A stretch of DNA of 64,000 nucleotides from Arctopsyche grandis (Eukaryota; Arthropoda; Insecta; Trichoptera; Hydropsychidae). The stretch is from NCBI RefSeq assembly GCF_051622035.1, contig NC_135362.1:6823501-6887500 (forward strand), in the 5' to 3' direction. How positions within the stretch are numbered: the first letter of the stretch is position 1; each line of letters opens with the position of its first letter. This document shows positions 12,617-62,000 of the stretch, in pieces. Below the pieces are notes generated by a model. The model searched no databases and had not been told where the DNA came from. It saw only the letters and a program-made list of their open reading frames with translations. The translations under genes and the position numbers were made by a program.

Positions 12617-14430
<1,814 letters not shown>

Positions 14431-29691: not shown

Positions 29692-31700
29692 GATAAAATT
29701 CGCGTATACATATATTCGCGTATATATATAATCTTCAATAAATTCGCGTTCAAAAACTTCATTATTTTTTATTTAAGTAGTAGCCATAGTAAATTCGATG
29801 GGAATGTAAATTATTTATTGTAAATTGTTTATTTTAGCCCAAATTATGAAAGAATATTCTGATGTCTGGAGCTGTTATAAAAGAAACGGCGATAAGGCTA
29901 CATGCACACTGTGTCCAAAAATATTGGGATGTAAAGCATCATTAACAACGGGTTTACATCGGCATTTACAAAAAATTCATAAGATGGAACGCGCATCACA
30001 AGAAACATTAGCTTTAACTGTTCCCGCAAGTACTTCTAAGCAGCAGAAACTAGAAGAAACGTCGAATCTTATTTCGTCCAGTCGTAAAATTACCCTCGAA
30101 AAAATCGTTTCTAAATTGGCTGCTAAAGATGGCATACCTATATTTACCATATGCAAAAGTGAATTTATACGCAATAGTTTGAATTTGCAAAATTTTAAAT
30201 TACCAAAGCAGCCATCAGACGTTATGAAATTAATACATAAACATTACGAAATTACCAAAAAACAAATCCTATCAAAAAATGCCGTTATGAAATCTGAAAA
30301 AAAAAATTTAGTTTGTCCATAGATGAATGGACTAGTTTTAAAAATCGAAGGTACATGAACGTCCATATATATTATTGCAATGGAGATTCACATAACTTGG
30401 GGTTAATGAGGATACACCGTTCTTGTCCAGCAGAGCGTGTATTCGAATTAGTAAATTCAAAAATGATATCCTTCGGAATTAGTTTTGAAAAAGATATTAT
30501 TTCTGTAACAAGCGATGGGGCCAGTGTCATGATAAAATTTGGAAGAGAATCCCCTGCATATCATCAACTATGCTACAATCACGCGGTAATGAAAGTTTTT
30601 TATACAGACAAGCGATCAACTGATTTTGATTCAGAAGTAGAATCTGAAATCGATGAATTTAGTTCAAATAGTTCTCTAGCTGCTGACAATGAATGTGAAT
30701 TTGTTATGGAAAATATTTTTATGAACGTTAATATCTACAAAATAATCAAGAAAATTCAAACAATCGTTAAATTTTTCAAAAATTCACCAGTTGGGAATTC
30801 AGTTTTACAAAACTATGTCAAAGAGACGCGAAGGGCCGAATTACAGTTGGTAATCGATTGTAAGACTCGATGGAATACTATAGAGACTATGGTAAACCGA
30901 TTTATTGAAATAGAAGATGCTGTGGTGAAATCATTAGCTGATTTGAATGCGAATTATTTGTGGATATCGGAGAATGATAAACCAATATCATTACATTTAT
31001 TAAAAGTGTTAAAACCGGTCACTATCGCAGTAGAGGCCCTAAGTCGTAAAGATGCAAATCTTTTAACCGCCGAGGGTGTTTTACAATTTTTATTTAATGC
31101 TTTAGAAAAAAATAACTCCGATATTAGCATAGAACTCCTAAACGAAATTAAGACGCAAATATCCAAAAGACGAGTCACCCCCATAATATCATTATTAAAA
31201 TTTTTACAAGATCCTAATTCTTTAGATATACCTATACAATCGGATTATGTTTTTCAAGTTGGTTCAAAAAATGAAATTATAAGAACTGCCAAGGCAATGT
31301 TAAAACGACTCTTTCTGAATACGAGAGCTGACACAAATACGGAAATACCGATGGTAAATGATAATAATGAATCTGATGGAGATATCATATAGACGATAGT
31401 CTAGAAGAACAACTGAAAAAATCCATCCTCCAAAGCTTAACTCCAAAGTCATCCCAATTAATTGATGATGACTTTCGAACATTAACGAAGGAAATAAATA
31501 TATATGAAGCAATGGGAAAATTAACAGATAACTTGAAAATTTTTACAGAAGCACTAACTACGATAAGACCGACTTCTACACAAAATGAACGAAATTTTTC
31601 GGTATCCGGTAATTTTGTTTCGAAAAGAAGAACATCCTTATCTGACAAATCCATAGATTGCTTGTGTTTTTTAAAAAGTATTTTTTTAAAATCTGAATAG
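29591..31700 (+). pseudogene. hAT transposase (BED finger, hATC domain), two frameshifts
   Basis: Exon 1 (29591-29669, MTDFSPVAELPRSHTDIFGR...) ends in GTAAGT and joins exon 2 at 29838 in phase. The BED zinc finger reads CTLCPKILGCKASLTTGLHR followed by HLQKIH. The main frame 30313-31390 has SIDEWTS, ISVTSDGASVM (the catalytic-core Asp region) and the CKTRWNTIETMVNRF block typical of hAT RNase H-like cores. The C-terminal dimerisation part (31395-31700) has RPTSTQNERNFSVSGNFVSK. The frame breaks near 30297-30315 and again near 31385-31400, so this copy cannot make one continuous protein. Motif order and length otherwise look complete. Confidence 0.88.
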
Positions 31701-33381: not shown

Positions 33382-35895
33382 TTAACTACCGTCATCAACA
33401 ACCATTTTTACAGCATCAGTATCCTCACAGAAAACTAAAACGTTAACCGTTTTCCCCTTATACACCTGCACAGGTGGGTCGATTAAATGGTACATATTGT
33501 TTATAAAAGAATCGATGTGATCGGTGCTCATTTCCTCGCCATCAGGGACCAACTGTATCTTGTAATAAGACTGGATGGCGTCTACGTGTCCGTCGGACGT
33601 TGCCGTCACCTTCACCGTTGAGCTGAACCGAGACTCGGCGCAGTCTTCGTAGACGCAGCCCTCGTCGGAGAGATACGACTTCTCGAATTCGTCCGATGGC
33701 GGGAACGAGTTGTGGGTCACTTGATAGCAATTCATCAGCTCGGCAATTTTGTATCTGGTGCTTTTCGATTTGTTGGCCCAAATTGAACGGATGTGTTTGA
33801 TCTTTTCTATGTCGTCAGTTACGTTCGTGACCGTGTTCGAGTTGTGCTTGGAGAAGACCGGGTGAGTTCCGGTCCGGTGCCAAACGTTCGACTCTATCAA
33901 ACTGTCGATGGATGCGTTCAGATCTATCCGCTTTGACGAAGTCTCGTCTTCTTTACACTGCTGATGGTCCACATCGGTTAAATTTTCGTCGTATACTCTA
34001 TTAAATTCGTTTAAATACTTTGAATTTACTAGTCTGACGTACATCTTTATTCTGTGCGGTACGACCGTTCCATTAGTTTGTAACGAGCCTTCTTGATGTA
34101 AACTGGCCATCGATATAGTCTTAGCGTAGAGGGTACCCATAGGACGTATGAAATTATTGACGATCATTTCATATTTGTCGTTTTCGTTCAACGTCATGTC
34201 GTCGTCGTATACGAACTTGTCAAACTCTATATTATTATATTCGGCGAGTTTTTCCAACAACGACCCGACTGCCGCATTGGTGTACGTCAGTTTTGCGATT
34301 CCTCTCACCAACAACAACATACCGACTATAGGAATCGGCGTATTATCCAAAACCGAAATATGCTCGAACAAATAATATAACTGCATTAAATGAAGACACG
34401 AGAAACTAACAGTAGTGATCATATTATTAACGTATTCGGTATCGTTCAAAATCCGTACAATATCTCCGTGAACCGGAAAATCCACACCGCTTTGGTAGTT
34501 TTGGTACACCATGTAAATGATTCCTCTCACCCATACTATATCGACGGATATATCTTGGTCGCGGCGACAATCCAAAGCCGACACGGTGTGGAAGATTGCC
34601 GCGTCCCAAGCGGTGCATCGCTCGGCACTCCTCGGATCGCTCGTTATAGACACACCTTCGCACAAGATCAGATCGAACCACATGGCGTAAGCGTCCACCT
34701 TACAGTCCTGCCGAGCGGTCAGTCGGATCGTTTGCTCCAGCGTGCTCCCCAGAACGCTCCTGATCGAGTCCGGGTCTTGGAAGTCGAATCGGACGATTTC
34801 GACGGGCTCCGTCACATACTTGACGTCTTTGATGAGGGTGAGGTCTTCCGTGTCGTACGGCTCGTCGACGTCGCGGAATATATTGATGTTGTTGAACTTC
34901 AAAAGTGTGAACAGTCGATTCTCCTCGGTGCGGACCACCCGGAACTTCTTGGCTAGCGTTATGCTTTCCACCCCGCAGATGTACACCACGGCGGCCTTCG
35001 GTACTATCTTTCCTTTGGGAATGAGGAGACGGTCCCACGCGTCCAGGATGCTCTCCAGCGCGTTCTCCCCGAAGAGTCCGGCGTCGAATATCTCAGTGAC
35101 GACGGCCGAGAATCTGCGCCGGTCGTCGTCGTCGTCCACCTCCAGGTTGGTCGACAGGTCTTTGCGGACCACAATGTTGTCGAAGCAGTTGAGGTCGACG
35201 GCCTCGCCGGCCACCCTGGTGAGCGCGTCGTTGGAGTCGCAGGCGATGACAGTGCAGGTGTGGCCGCAGGCGTCCGCCGCGTAGAAGGAGAGCAGTCCAC
35301 TGCCGCAGCCGACGTCCAGCACCACATCGTCCGGCTCGAGGACCGCTTCGATGGCTCGCCTGTAGGAGAGGTTGCGGCGCCGGTCGTTGAGCATGCGAAA
35401 GTGCCAGCGGTCGACGAGCAGGTGTTTGGTGACGTTGACGTACTTCTCGGCCTGCGCGAAGGCCGGGTCGATGCGGAGCGACTTCTGCAGGAATCCGCAG
35501 GCCTCGGCCAGGTGTCCGGCGCGCAGGACGCTGCGGCCCACCTGGTAGAGCACGAAGCTGCCCTCGGGGTAGACGCGCAGCGCGTGGCCGATCACCGCGT
35601 ACAGCTCGTCGTGGCGGTTCGTCTCGAGCAGGAAGTGCGCCAGCTCGGACATGGTGAGCGCGAACTCCGACTCGAGCTTGTCGATGGTGTCCTTGCCGAC
35701 GGAGCCCACGGCCGTCAGGTGGACGAACGCCGACACGTACATCTCGAACGCCTCCTCCCACGAGCCGACCTCCGCGTGCTTCCGCGCCGTCTCTAGGATC
35801 GCCACGGGATGGCAGTGGCGAGACACCATCACGCTCTCCGACTCCATGGCGCCGACTGACACCGCCGACTGACTGACAGACGTCAAAAACGGCAC
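33382..35895 (-). CDS. PRMT9: Protein arginine methyltransferase 9 (PRMT9), intronless
   Basis: A single 2,514-bp frame encodes 837 residues (human PRMT9 about 845). TPR-like repeats occupy about 30-170 (FLQKSLRIDPAFAQAEKYVN). Next comes LVDRWHFRMLNDRRRNLSYR, matching the human [20 protein letters not shown]. Then SAM-binding motif I VLDVGCGSGLLSFYAADACG, acidic residue AC-D, and the substrate/double-E loop VVTEIFDAGLFGE. The second methyltransferase-like half follows to the C-terminus. PRMT9 makes symmetric dimethylarginine on the splicing factor SF3B2 in other animals. The 5' third is strongly GC-rich and the 3' half AT-rich. An in-frame ATG at 35847 is an alternative start. Absence of introns, unlike its neighbours, suggests intron loss or an old retrocopy. 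Confidence 0.95.
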   Translation of the reverse strand: MPFLTSVSQSAVSVGAMESESVMVSRHCHPVAILETARKHAEVGSWEEAFEMYVSAFVHLTAVGSVGKDTIDKLESEFALTMSELAHFLLETNRHDELYAVIGHALRVYPEGSFVLYQVGRSVLRAGHLAEACGFLQKSLRIDPAFAQAEKYVNVTKHLLVDRWHFRMLNDRRRNLSYRRAIEAVLEPDDVVLDVGCGSGLLSFYAADACGHTCTVIACDSNDALTRVAGEAVDLNCFDNIVVRKDLSTNLEVDDDDDRRRFSAVVTEIFDAGLFGENALESILDAWDRLLIPKGKIVPKAAVVYICGVESITLAKKFRVVRTEENRLFTLLKFNNINIFRDVDEPYDTEDLTLIKDVKYVTEPVEIVRFDFQDPDSIRSVLGSTLEQTIRLTARQDCKVDAYAMWFDLILCEGVSITSDPRSAERCTAWDAAIFHTVSALDCRRDQDISVDIVWVRGIIYMVYQNYQSGVDFPVHGDIVRILNDTEYVNNMITTVSFSCLHLMQLYYLFEHISVLDNTPIPIVGMLLLVRGIAKLTYTNAAVGSLLEKLAEYNNIEFDKFVYDDDMTLNENDKYEMIVNNFIRPMGTLYAKTISMASLHQEGSLQTNGTVVPHRIKMYVRLVNSKYLNEFNRVYDENLTDVDHQQCKEDETSSKRIDLNASIDSLIESNVWHRTGTHPVFSKHNSNTVTNVTDDIEKIKHIRSIWANKSKSTRYKIAELMNCYQVTHNSFPPSDEFEKSYLSDEGCVYEDCAESRFSSTVKVTATSDGHVDAIQSYYKIQLVPDGEEMSTDHIDSFINNMYHLIDPPVQVYKGKTVNVLVFCEDTDAVKMVVDDGS

Positions 35896-35982
35896 GTGGC
35901 TCGGTCTCTCCCCTCCCTTCGATTGTGGCCAACACGGCGCGTTTCGCGGCCACTGTTATTTTCATCAGCTGGCAATTGGAGG

Positions 35983-36035
35983 GTTCGGTGATTACTAGTC
36001 AAATGTGAACCGGTCGCTCTAGATCGGTCACACGC
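35983..36035. mobile_element. Truncated family B foldback end next to the PRMT9 promoter
   Basis: GGTTCGGTGATTACTAGTCA and CGGTCGCTCTAGATCGGTCA match the first 50 bases of the element at 9702. The rest is lost. It lies under 100 bp upstream of the PRMT9 start codon, so it may sit in the leader or promoter. Confidence 0.75.
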
Positions 36036-50905: not shown

Positions 50906-52077
50906 CAAGGCTTTTGCTTTGTCATGTAACGCATTGGAACGGCGTTCTGGTACCTTTTTTCATGCTATTTTTTAATGTTTCAAAAGCAATTAGACGAAAC
51001 AATCAAACAATGTTCGGACGTATATAATGACAATCCATATTTATATAATTTGTCAAAATAATAAAATAAGATGTTATGAACCGAGTGAAATATGGATGAA
51101 TTTTGGCGTTCTTGATAGCGTAGTGTAAATAATATTTGAATATAATTTTCTCTATTAAAAAGCTTAACAAGAAGTGTTCCAGCACCTTTTTTTTTTAAAA
51201 AAAAAAACACTGCATGAAACATTTCATATTTTTCATTGAACCATATGCAATATTTAAGTGTCGCATCTTTAAATCATTATTAATAAATGGTATTGAAAAA
51301 TAACTTTTTTCATTTTTGTATATAAAAACTGTATTCATTTGTTCAAACGCACATTTAAACTTCATTCGTTTCCTTATTTTCTATTTGTTCATTGTATTGA
51401 TAGTTCGTAAATATATAAATATAAAATCATATTTAATTTTACAGAAAAAGTTCAATTGAAAATATTCCAACGATTCAGGAGCACCATCAAGAGTACGAAC
51501 GGTATCCAGGGTTATTTTTATTTAAACTAGAAATCCATGTGGTCAACAACTTTAACATGGTCAACAATTATAGCGTTTCCTCTAATAACAATTTAAGTGT
51601 CGCAAAATATCGCCATCTATTGACCGACTACATAAGATTTTACTTCTAATTTACCACAAGAGATTTCAATACGTTTGATAATTTTAAAAATAAAGACATT
51701 TATTTTATTTTATATAGAATTTCGTGTAGAATAATAAATACAAATTATATTATTTCATCTCACATGATTTATTTTAAAGTATTAGGCATGTACTAAAAAT
51801 GTATGTGTATAAGTATATTCAAATATTTTTAGTTTGCATATTGTATCAGAATTTTTTCTGTTCATAAGCAAAGCATGTGGATTTAATTTCAAAGAAATTA
51901 TTAGAGAAGCAAGAATGAATATGCAATGAAAATTTGTAGTTAAAAAATAAAACACAAGAAAGCTAATTATTGTTTTTTTTTTATTTAATATTTACATTTT
52001 TACGTCATATTTCGATTCGTTACATAAATAACAGAAATAGGAAAAACTATACAATTAATACAATGTAACAATTTCAA
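50906..52077. other. Intergenic, AT-rich; sloth 3' flank at its end
   Basis: No gene seen. A T-rich stretch near 51190 and scattered short frames only. The minus-strand 3' untranslated region of the sloth transcript probably ends near the AATAAA complement at about 51977. Confidence 0.45.
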
Positions 52078-52281
52078 TTATGTAGAAATTAATTTTAAAA
52101 CTTTAGTTCTCACTTCTATACGCTGGTCAGATGGTAGTTTGTCCAATTCCATTTCTACATATTTTTCCAAATCGTTGAGAGGTTGATATTTCCAATGAAC
52201 ATATTGAGATCCGATGAACATGCAAAAAATTGCCGAGACAGTAAAACATCCATAGTTGAGCACCGATACTCCCAATGGCAT
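52078..52281 (-). CDS. sloth2: Sloth2 / Brawnin (UQCC6) homologue, second cistron
   Basis: A 67-residue protein starting MPLGVSVLNYGCFTVSAIFC, close in layout to human Brawnin (MPAGVPMSTYLK...). It has one N-terminal transmembrane helix (about 8-26), then HWKYQPLNDLEKYVEMELDK, like the VHRYYRPDL stretch of Brawnin. Brawnin/Sloth2 is an inner-mitochondrial-membrane micropeptide needed for respiratory complex III assembly. The ATG is 11 bases after the stop of the upstream cistron, with no room for its own promoter or an intron, so it is almost certainly translated from the same mRNA, as in Drosophila. Assignment combines similarity with conserved gene order. Confidence 0.88.
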   Translation of the reverse strand: MPLGVSVLNYGCFTVSAIFCMFIGSQYVHWKYQPLNDLEKYVEMELDKLPSDQRIEVRTKVLKLIST

Positions 52282-52292
52282 TTTTTAAAGAT

Positions 52293-52529
52293 CTATTGAT
52301 TCTGGGTGAGAGAATCGGCCGGTTCTTCGTACAGAACGTATTTAACTAAGTTTTCAGCTTCCCTTTTTTTGTATGTGTTGTAAAAATTAGTTTCGCCGAC
52401 GTGCCAGTTTATCATGGAAAACTCCAAGCCAGCTCCGAACAGTACAAATACAGGAAGAAAACGGTAAACGCCGAAGATTTTCTTCCCCGGCCACTTATCC
52501 AGCACTTTCGCGAGCCAAGGTAGCAGCAT
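52293..52529 (-). CDS. sloth1: Sloth1 / SMIM4 (UQCC5) homologue, first cistron
   Basis: A 78-residue protein with PGKKIFGVYRFLPVFVLFGA and VGETNFYNTYKKREAEN, aligning with human SMIM4 (PGKQRFGIYRFLPFFFVLGG, VGQETFYDVYRRKASE). One transmembrane helix lies at about 21-38. SMIM4/UQCC5 acts with Brawnin in early complex III (cytochrome b) assembly at the inner mitochondrial membrane. The leader would start near 52560; a foldback MITE lies about 130 bp further upstream. It has no introns. Confidence 0.9.
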   Translation of the reverse strand: MLLPWLAKVLDKWPGKKIFGVYRFLPVFVLFGAGLEFSMINWHVGETNFYNTYKKREAENLVKYVLYEEPADSLTQNQ

Positions 52530-52663
52530 TTGTCGAAGAGCCGGCTCTCAAGGGGCTTTACGTCAGAATTAGATTTTGACAGATACCAAAATAGCAAAAC
52601 ATAACCCAATCCATCACGGCCATATACTAAATATGCTGAAAATTAAATTGATCGAAAAAATAT

Positions 52664-59000: not shown

Positions 59001-59071
59001 GTTTTCAGTTGAAATGAAAAACGTTGGCGATAATTGTGAATAGCGAATATAAATTAACATTTAACATCAAA

Positions 59072-62000
59072 ATGTCGTACGTGTCGAACTTCTTCCGGCG
59101 GTTATTCAATTTGAAACGCTCGAAGCCGCCGTCGAATATCGAAGAGCGAGTATCCTGGCTGCTGAAACCGTACATGAGCACCGTTCAAGATGTTCTCCTG
59201 TGGAAAAATCCCATCGTCAGTGCTTGCATCGTCGTCAGCATCAACTTGATGTTTTGGTATGCGTTTTTACTATCATATATATTACATTTTAAAAAAAATC
59301 CATATAAAAATATCCTCATACGACATTTATAAGGAAAAAAGTAGATCAAGGTTTTTTTGTACGTGAACTTTTTGACCTGTATTTTATGTAGATTCTACAT
59401 TTATGTATCTCGGATTTTTACCCCGCTTGTATTGAATTGCATTTACTGATTGATTATTTCAGTGGTTTAATTTGTACGTTGTGTAAGATTTCGTATATAC
59501 ATATATATGTGTATGCATGAATAATCTTATGCAATGGAAAATCTAGACAAGTGGGTCATTTTTTATGTACATACCATTCACTTTCCATATAAAAAAAAAT
59601 TCCAACAGCTTCATCATCGACCACTTTTCATTTCTTATCAGTTTGAACTGTTATAATAAATATTATATCAATTTTAATTGATATTAAACACTATTGATAT
59701 TAAGTAGTGTATAATAATTATTATTTACACTATGTAGGACAACAAAATTATGCCGAGTCAGACGTTTTTGTATTTGATTTTCGCCATATTTACAAATTTC
59801 ATCAGAAATTGATGTTACATATGTATGTATGTTACTATGTACATATATAATATATTATTTATGTTATATTTTCAAAAAAACGTTAAACTTATGATTTGAA
59901 AATTTTATCTTTAATTCTGGCAATTGATTTAATAATGAATAAAGCCCGGACCCTGAGGGGGCCGTTTATTGTTCAAATGTTGTAAATGCATTGTTAAAGG
60001 TTTGCCCAACCTTTTTTACAAAGCATTTACAACAATTGAACTATAAACGGCACGCCTCCGGTCCTACCTCTAGTTTTGAATCCAAAATATCCCTTTATAA
60101 GTTTTTTTGACGATTGTTGGCTAAATTGGAGCGAAAAACGCGAATTTTCGATTTTCACTGATGGACTTACATAGTTTTAAAAAACGTTAATATAAATTTT
60201 TATTGATTTTAAATAGTCTTATCTTATCTTCCCGTTATTATTTTGAAAATATAGTCGTTGATAGCTTGCTTGAGTAAAAAATGACCAGTTTTACGTTAAA
60301 CATGACATTTTGCGTCAAAACAGTCATTTAGCTCATTTTAACCTTCTTATATGTATTTCATAAAATTCTTTAATTATTTTTGTTTACATAAAAGGCATAT
60401 ATATAGGCTCAATGAAGTTGAAAATACTAATTTCGAAAAATAGATATCAAAACAATCTATGTATGTACATTTTCGAAATTTTTGTCGAGATAAATCGATT
60501 GGTGGAGGCACAGGTCATGGTTTAAAATCAATGAATTATTTTGTTTAACGTTCTTTTGATACGTCAAAGGTTTCCATTTAGTCCATGGATGATAATCGAA
60601 AATTTGCGTCTTTCTTCTGGCCTATTGTTCGAGTTAGTTTTGTCCTAAGGGAAATGTTGGAACATTTATCTTCCCTTGGGACAAAACGAGCACCAACAAT
60701 AGACCAAAAGAAATGGTGTATGGCAGTCTACAATATAAGTTTTATTATCCAAGGACAGGTTTTTTTGTTTAGTTATTTAGATCTTTTTCCAAGCTAGAAA
60801 TCGCTTTGAAAAGATTCTTCATTCTATGTGATATTGTAATGAAAACATCCCTTACTATTGTTTACAGTAAAAGCTTTGCAAATATTCAGAAATGTAAAAA
60901 TAATATATACCTTTTTTTTTTGCCTAAATCTTTAGACTGAAAGGAAGCAAGTGGAGACCACTTTGTTTAGGTTTATACCTTTATCTTTAGGTTTATACCT
61001 GTATATTATATGAATAGAAATAGAATTGTATAAAATACCTACTTCTTATCTGCCATTTTACTTAGCCATTGCTAAGGGATAATGGCGAAGTGAAACAAAT
61101 TAAAACCTTGCAAAAGCCACTTTTATTATTCATCTCTTGCCAGTCATTTTAAACCCAAGTTGCCATTGTTGTTTATATAATGAATTGAAATATATTTTTA
61201 TGTTAATTAGTTTAAGTTAAATCTGTACAATTATCCCATACATAATTTTATTTTTAACATATTAGCCACAGTGACATTACAGAGAGCTCCAACGCGTCAC
61301 TGTGGCCAGTCATACAATCGTAACATCGTAATAATAATCTTGATGGAAAAATCAAAATAATTGATGAAATCAACCACTGGGGTTGCTCAACAATCACTCA
61401 ACCAGTTTAGCACAGTTTAGATTAAAGAGGCCAATTTCACCAGCAACCCGGTTGAGCAGATATATATTAACTGCTTGTAAATTATTTAATTAACAATTAA
61501 AATGCCACTTTTCTATATACATATTTACATGTAAAATATATTAAATCTTTACTTATACGAAATTTTTGGTACTGGTTTAGCGTGCATTCTACCTACAACT
61601 TGCATTCTACCGTAATAGGACTTGATAATAATATTTGTCTGACATCTTGCCAGGGTATTCGGCACCGGCCTAGCGTGCTGACAGTATATTTAGTTTTTAT
61701 TATTCCCCAAGAATGCTTAGAGATTTCTATCGACTGATTTCAACAGAGGAGTCAACCTGCAGTTTTATCTCGGAAAATGGGCTTTTCTAAAACAGCCAAA
61801 CACTGTTTGGCGCATTAAAAATAAGAATGTTCCGACCTTTTTGTCAAGTTTCTTAATGACATTGCGACGGTTTACCGTTAATCAATAATTGCTGTTGTAA
61901 TGACGACTACTTGTTTTCATAAAATATGAACCTGTTTATCTGACCATTCCTATAAACATAGATAGGTTGACTGCATGCTAAACCAGTTATGTACCTTTAA

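Follow-up and report, generated by a model that had tools for sequence, protein, structure and literature searches.

Two short open reading frames lie a few bases apart in the window (the whole stretch of DNA analysed here, 64 kb). The question they raise is whether they form an orthologue of the sloth1–sloth2 gene of Drosophila, which encodes two small proteins on a single mRNA. Both are intact ATG-to-stop frames. ORF1 (52293..52529, minus strand, read from 52529 to 52293) encodes 78 amino acids, and ORF2 (52078..52281, minus strand, read from 52281 to 52078) encodes 67. The two occupy different frames and are separated by the intercistronic gap ATCTTTAAAAA (52282..52292, minus strand), 11 bases that are read directly from the DNA and that also provide the start context of ORF2, with A at position −3. 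The initial annotation had placed two frames on one strand at 52078..52529 with an 11-base gap. These coordinates are exact; the strand, which it left unstated, is the minus strand.

Tandem short frames are not rare in this DNA. The window holds six such pairs (each frame at least 60 amino acids, gap 0–20 bases), and Markov shuffles (n = 60) gave a mean of 0.55, with at least one pair in 25 of the 60. Geometry alone is thus not diagnostic, and identification rests on homology as given by Pfam matches. ORF1 matches UPF0640 (PF15114) with an E-value of 6e-30 and 103.4 bits against a cut-off of 27. ORF2 matches DUF4516 (PF14990) with an E-value of 2.6e-12 and 46.6 bits, again against a cut-off of 27. 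PF15114 is taken here to be the SMIM4/UQCC5/Sloth1 family, and PF14990 presumably corresponds to the C12orf73/Brawnin/UQCC6/Sloth2 family. On these matches, ORF1 is the predicted orthologue of sloth1/SMIM4 (UQCC5), and ORF2 is the predicted orthologue of sloth2/C12orf73-Brawnin (UQCC6). The assignment to the SMIM4 and C12orf73 families had been proposed from similarity, together with a profile search of both proteins as the means of checking it. That search recovered both families above cut-off, given the presumed naming of the accessions. The arrangement found, with sloth1 first, a common minus strand and 11 bases between the frames, is that of the sloth1–sloth2 pair.

Each Pfam match forms one unbroken stretch, covering profile positions 6–63 of 67 in ORF1 and 1–43 of 46 in ORF2, and the conserved cores are therefore without an intron. 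The earlier claim that the locus has no intron stands for these cores; an alternative splice acceptor could nevertheless sit inside ORF1. Both proteins are below 100 amino acids, and each has a single hydrophobic stretch by Kyte–Doolittle averaging over 19 residues, a hydropathy measure as distinct from a dedicated membrane predictor. The peak lies at residues 18–36 in ORF1 (1.55) and at residues 5–23 in ORF2 (1.84). A single-sequence AlphaFold2 model of ORF1, of modest confidence (mean pLDDT 72.4, pTM 0.38), places helices at residues 3–11 and 19–67. Sequence searches of the PDB gave no convincing relative of ORF1, the best being Cox5c (E = 0.37), and nothing for ORF2 at E ≤ 1. The organism's own assembly (475,669,232 bases) was searched with each protein. 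Either search returned one match at E ≤ 0.001, which was the locus itself (two of two candidates scored in each case, introns not modelled). The DUF4516 profile likewise found only the ORF2 position in this assembly (nine of nine candidates scored) and had matches in 0 of 14 control genomes. A pattern scan of bacterial, archaeal and viral contigs with ORF1 gave 58 and 2 matches, none confirmed by tblastn, and is uninformative for eukaryotes. UPF0640 has been named among mitochondria-related proteins without known function, in a passage that does not mention SMIM4 (PMC5064140).

The two peptides had been described as unrelated. This was overstated, since Bosch et al. (2022; PMC9681215) regard the sloth1 and sloth2 peptides as likely distant paralogues, with 27% similarity in the fly. 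A BLASTP comparison of the ORF1 and ORF2 proteins gave no alignment at E ≤ 100, a null result that is compatible with distant paralogy.

The Drosophila melanogaster gene (CG32736–CG42308) is the closest known counterpart. As the initial annotation had stated, its two frames are carried on one mRNA; a full-length transcript holds both, with a gap of 5 bases (PMC9681215). As here, sloth1 comes first, the gap is short and the frames are shifted with respect to one another. The products are alike in size (79 and 61 amino acids in the fly, 78 and 67 here), although the present gap is 11 bases and ORF2 is six residues longer. A single transcript is shown for the fly gene and predicted for the present locus; the likeness between them covers order, gap, frames, start contexts and sizes. 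In the fly, loss of the sloth genes reduces complex III, and the two peptides co-immunoprecipitate (PMC9681215). A review equates sloth1 with SMIM4/UQCC5 and sloth2 with Brawnin (PMC9953451). In humans, SMIM4 and C12ORF73 are isolated together with UQCC1 and UQCC2, act in early assembly of cytochrome c reductase (complex III) and depend on one another (PMC8719881). The human proteins SMIM4 (UQCC5) and C12orf73/Brawnin (UQCC6) belong to the same families as the two ORFs by the presumed Pfam link. Unlike the pair here, their genes lie on different chromosomes, as in other jawed vertebrates (PMC9681215). A similar bicistronic architecture is described for sea squirt, lamprey and choanoflagellate, in a figure whose legend pools candidate bicistronic transcripts and adjacent separate transcripts as linked (PMC9681215). 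The orthologues of these other lineages are set beside the present locus by description and not by sequence. Given the similar architecture in fly, sea squirt, lamprey and choanoflagellate, the arrangement is already known and is probably old. The claim that the locus extends eukaryotic bicistronic coding was accordingly overstated, these cases having been reported before; it is a new example, and an ordinary orthologue. Among three further papers (PMC5751329, PMC12485850 and PMC11475943), one on tsetse concerns sloth2 expression and one on a beetle gives CG32736 as a predicted microRNA target. The passages concerned leave the gene arrangement in these insects unmentioned. The literature covered, mostly outside subscription, gave no description of a dicistronic pair in an insect other than Drosophila, an absence of little weight.

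The start contexts bear on how both frames might be translated. ORF1 begins in a weak context (CGACAAATG; CGACAA-AUG, with C at −3) and ORF2 in a strong one (TAAAAAATG; UAAAAA-AUG, with A at −3). This succession is the fly pattern, in which the first start is non-optimal (ACACATG) and the second optimal (CAAAATG), and leaky scanning was proposed by Bosch et al. for the fly gene (PMC9681215). From one start to the other, a distance of 248 bases, there is no out-of-frame ATG and a single ATG in the frame of ORF1, at codon 39 and in a weak context (T at −3). ORF2, through which no scanning is needed, contains four out-of-frame ATGs. Under synonymous-codon nulls, the absence of out-of-frame ATGs had a probability of 0.0204 with the usage of ORF1 and ORF2, 0.0312 with that of five open frames of the window, 0.0103 with that of a 757-residue open frame, and 0.0174 with usage set by composition. 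With the codon usage of ORF1 itself the value was 0.18, and permutation of its own codons gave 0.28. The scarcity of ATGs in ORF1 is only suggestive, because these own-codon nulls do not support depletion. The five comparison frames were taken from the window, and not all are shown to be genes. Stretches of 248 bases free of out-of-frame ATGs made up 282 of 775 and 10 of 34 in two of them, and 0 of 675, 0 of 282 and 0 of 187 in the other three. Seven ATGs occur within the 271 bases upstream of ORF1. The nearest three (at 52623, 52614 and 52602) belong to one short frame that stops at 52558. If transcribed, these upstream ATGs would complicate simple scanning to ORF1. RNA structure from the ORF1 leader to beyond the ORF2 start was unremarkable (z = −0.45; 28 of 100 shuffles folded at least as well).

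The flanks were read for signs of common boundaries. Both frames could share a 3′ end set by the putative poly(A) signal AATAAA (51980..51985, minus strand). This signal starts 93 bases beyond the final base of the ORF2 stop codon and is overlapped by an ATTAAA that starts at 51989 on the same strand. It is the sole minus-strand AATAAA between 52800 and 51900; none lies between the ORFs. Its position is consistent with one mRNA for both. On the 5′ side, the immediate flank (52530..52565, minus strand) holds TGACGTAA at 52565–52558 and AGAGCCGGCTCT at 52548–52537. The latter is a perfect 12-base palindrome just 5′ of the ORF1 start and is unique in the window, even when one mismatch is allowed. 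From its sequence, this flank is a putative promoter or 5′ UTR. A scan for bacterial-type promoters is uninformative for a eukaryotic locus. The gene pair is bracketed by a 19-base direct repeat (84% identity, at 51999–52017 and 52557–52575) that carries TGACGTAA in the same orientation on both sides. Exact TGACGTAA sites number two in the window, both within this repeat, against a chance expectation of 2.73. The repeat may be due to chance, because a repeat finder detected two more copies at 74%. Searches of the whole window with Rfam (gathering threshold) and ARAGORN gave no matches.

Other features of the window were recorded alongside the pair. Two open pieces at 12808–13651 (minus strand) match NUDIX_2 (PF13869) with E-values of 3.6e-18 and 5.5e-15, and are presumably exons of a CPSF5/NUDT21-like gene. 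An 857-residue stop-to-stop frame at 33385–35955 (minus strand) lies in a GC-rich stretch (55.5% at 34001–36000) and matches a methyltransferase family above cut-off and PRMT_C slightly below cut-off. This long frame without interruption is predicted to belong to an arginine methyltransferase-like gene. A BED zinc finger at cut-off and a hAT dimerization match just below it mark 29810–31697 (plus strand) as a hAT-like transposase or a relative. An open frame at 59018–59329 (plus strand), probably a first exon, has a RETREG/reticulon-homology match just below cut-off (26.6 versus 27 bits).

The locus is probably an orthologue of the Drosophila sloth1–sloth2 dicistronic gene, with one mRNA, leaky scanning and a joint role of the products in complex III. 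Leaky scanning is the most likely mechanism here, because the locus has the gene order of Drosophila, a similarly short gap and the same bases at −3. The proposed course of events would be as follows. Transcription from a single promoter 5′ of 52529 on the minus strand would yield one mRNA, with its 3′ end close to the AATAAA at 51985. Ribosomes scanning this message would reach the weak AUG of ORF1 first, and some would initiate there to produce the SMIM4-like peptide. Others would leak past, meeting no out-of-frame AUG and only the weak in-frame one at codon 39, and would initiate at the strong AUG of ORF2 to produce the Brawnin-like peptide. Both single-pass peptides would then enter the inner mitochondrial membrane and cooperate in the early assembly of complex III (cytochrome b). 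The common mRNA may hold the ratio of the two peptides steady. Shared mRNA, leaky scanning, localization and function are carried over, as expectations, from the published work on fly and human.

Three other readings were weighed against this one. The pair might be served by two mRNAs, with ORF2 expressed from a promoter within ORF1 or through splicing of an upstream donor to an acceptor there. Nothing in the DNA forbids a separate ORF2 message, and the earlier statement that there is no space for a second promoter was too strong, as either element could lie within ORF1. A pyrimidine-rich stretch ending in CAG (TTCTCTCACCCAG), noted by eye and unscored, is found six bases before the ORF1 stop. 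In Drosophila, however, the start sites are predicted to produce one transcript only, and both ORFs are present in a full-length cDNA and in an RT-PCR product (PMC9681215). The strong ORF2 start suits a dicistronic message, as does, only suggestively, an ORF1 without out-of-frame ATGs; two messages are very unlikely. A single mRNA might instead deliver ORF2 by termination and reinitiation or through an internal entry site. Reinitiation is disfavoured by the length of ORF1, since 78 codons is long for it, and by the 11-base gap, which is short. The region from the ORF1 leader past the ORF2 start is not unusually structured. Bosch et al. do count both processes among the mechanisms for multicistronic transcripts, but in their fly reporter the output of the downstream ORF rose once sloth1 translation was impaired (PMC9681215). 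Either route is unlikely.

The locus might also be a processed, intronless retrocopy of a real locus elsewhere. Conserved cores without introns would suit such an origin, and so would a direct repeat with TGACGTAA on both sides of the pair. The downstream repeat copy nonetheless precedes the AATAAA and an A-run, unlike a target-site duplication, and the repeat itself is possibly a chance feature. At E ≤ 0.001 the assembly holds no further match to either protein (two candidates scored for each, introns not modelled), and both ORFs are intact. The retrocopy reading is barely credible and was rejected on the single assembly matches, the misplaced repeat and the intact frames.

The lineage of the organism can be approached through its telomeric repeats. 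Arthropods typically have telomeres of TTAGG units, which are not known from Diptera. The assembly contains 46,861 exact matches to six TTAGG units (27,414 forward and 19,447 reverse, overlaps counted), and the reversed control gave 0. On contig C1 they occur, for example, at 7858237 and 42660968–42661447; among the matches listed some are short and scattered and one forms a long array. These arrays point to a non-dipteran arthropod, and the attribution of the pair to another insect lineage is plausible.

As an orthologue of sloth1–sloth2, the locus adds an apparently non-dipteran arthropod case and fits the idea of an ancestral linkage lost in jawed vertebrates. A broader proposal is tentative and somewhat less than an even prospect. 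The pair may go back to a dicistron in the ancestry of animals and choanoflagellates, which selection on the peptide ratio has preserved throughout arthropods; the weak-first, strong-second asymmetry would then be the conserved element of regulation, and it would have disappeared once the genes became unlinked in jawed vertebrates. The locus is also useful for annotation: where a procedure accepts a single ORF for each transcript, one member of the pair would be liable to be missed.
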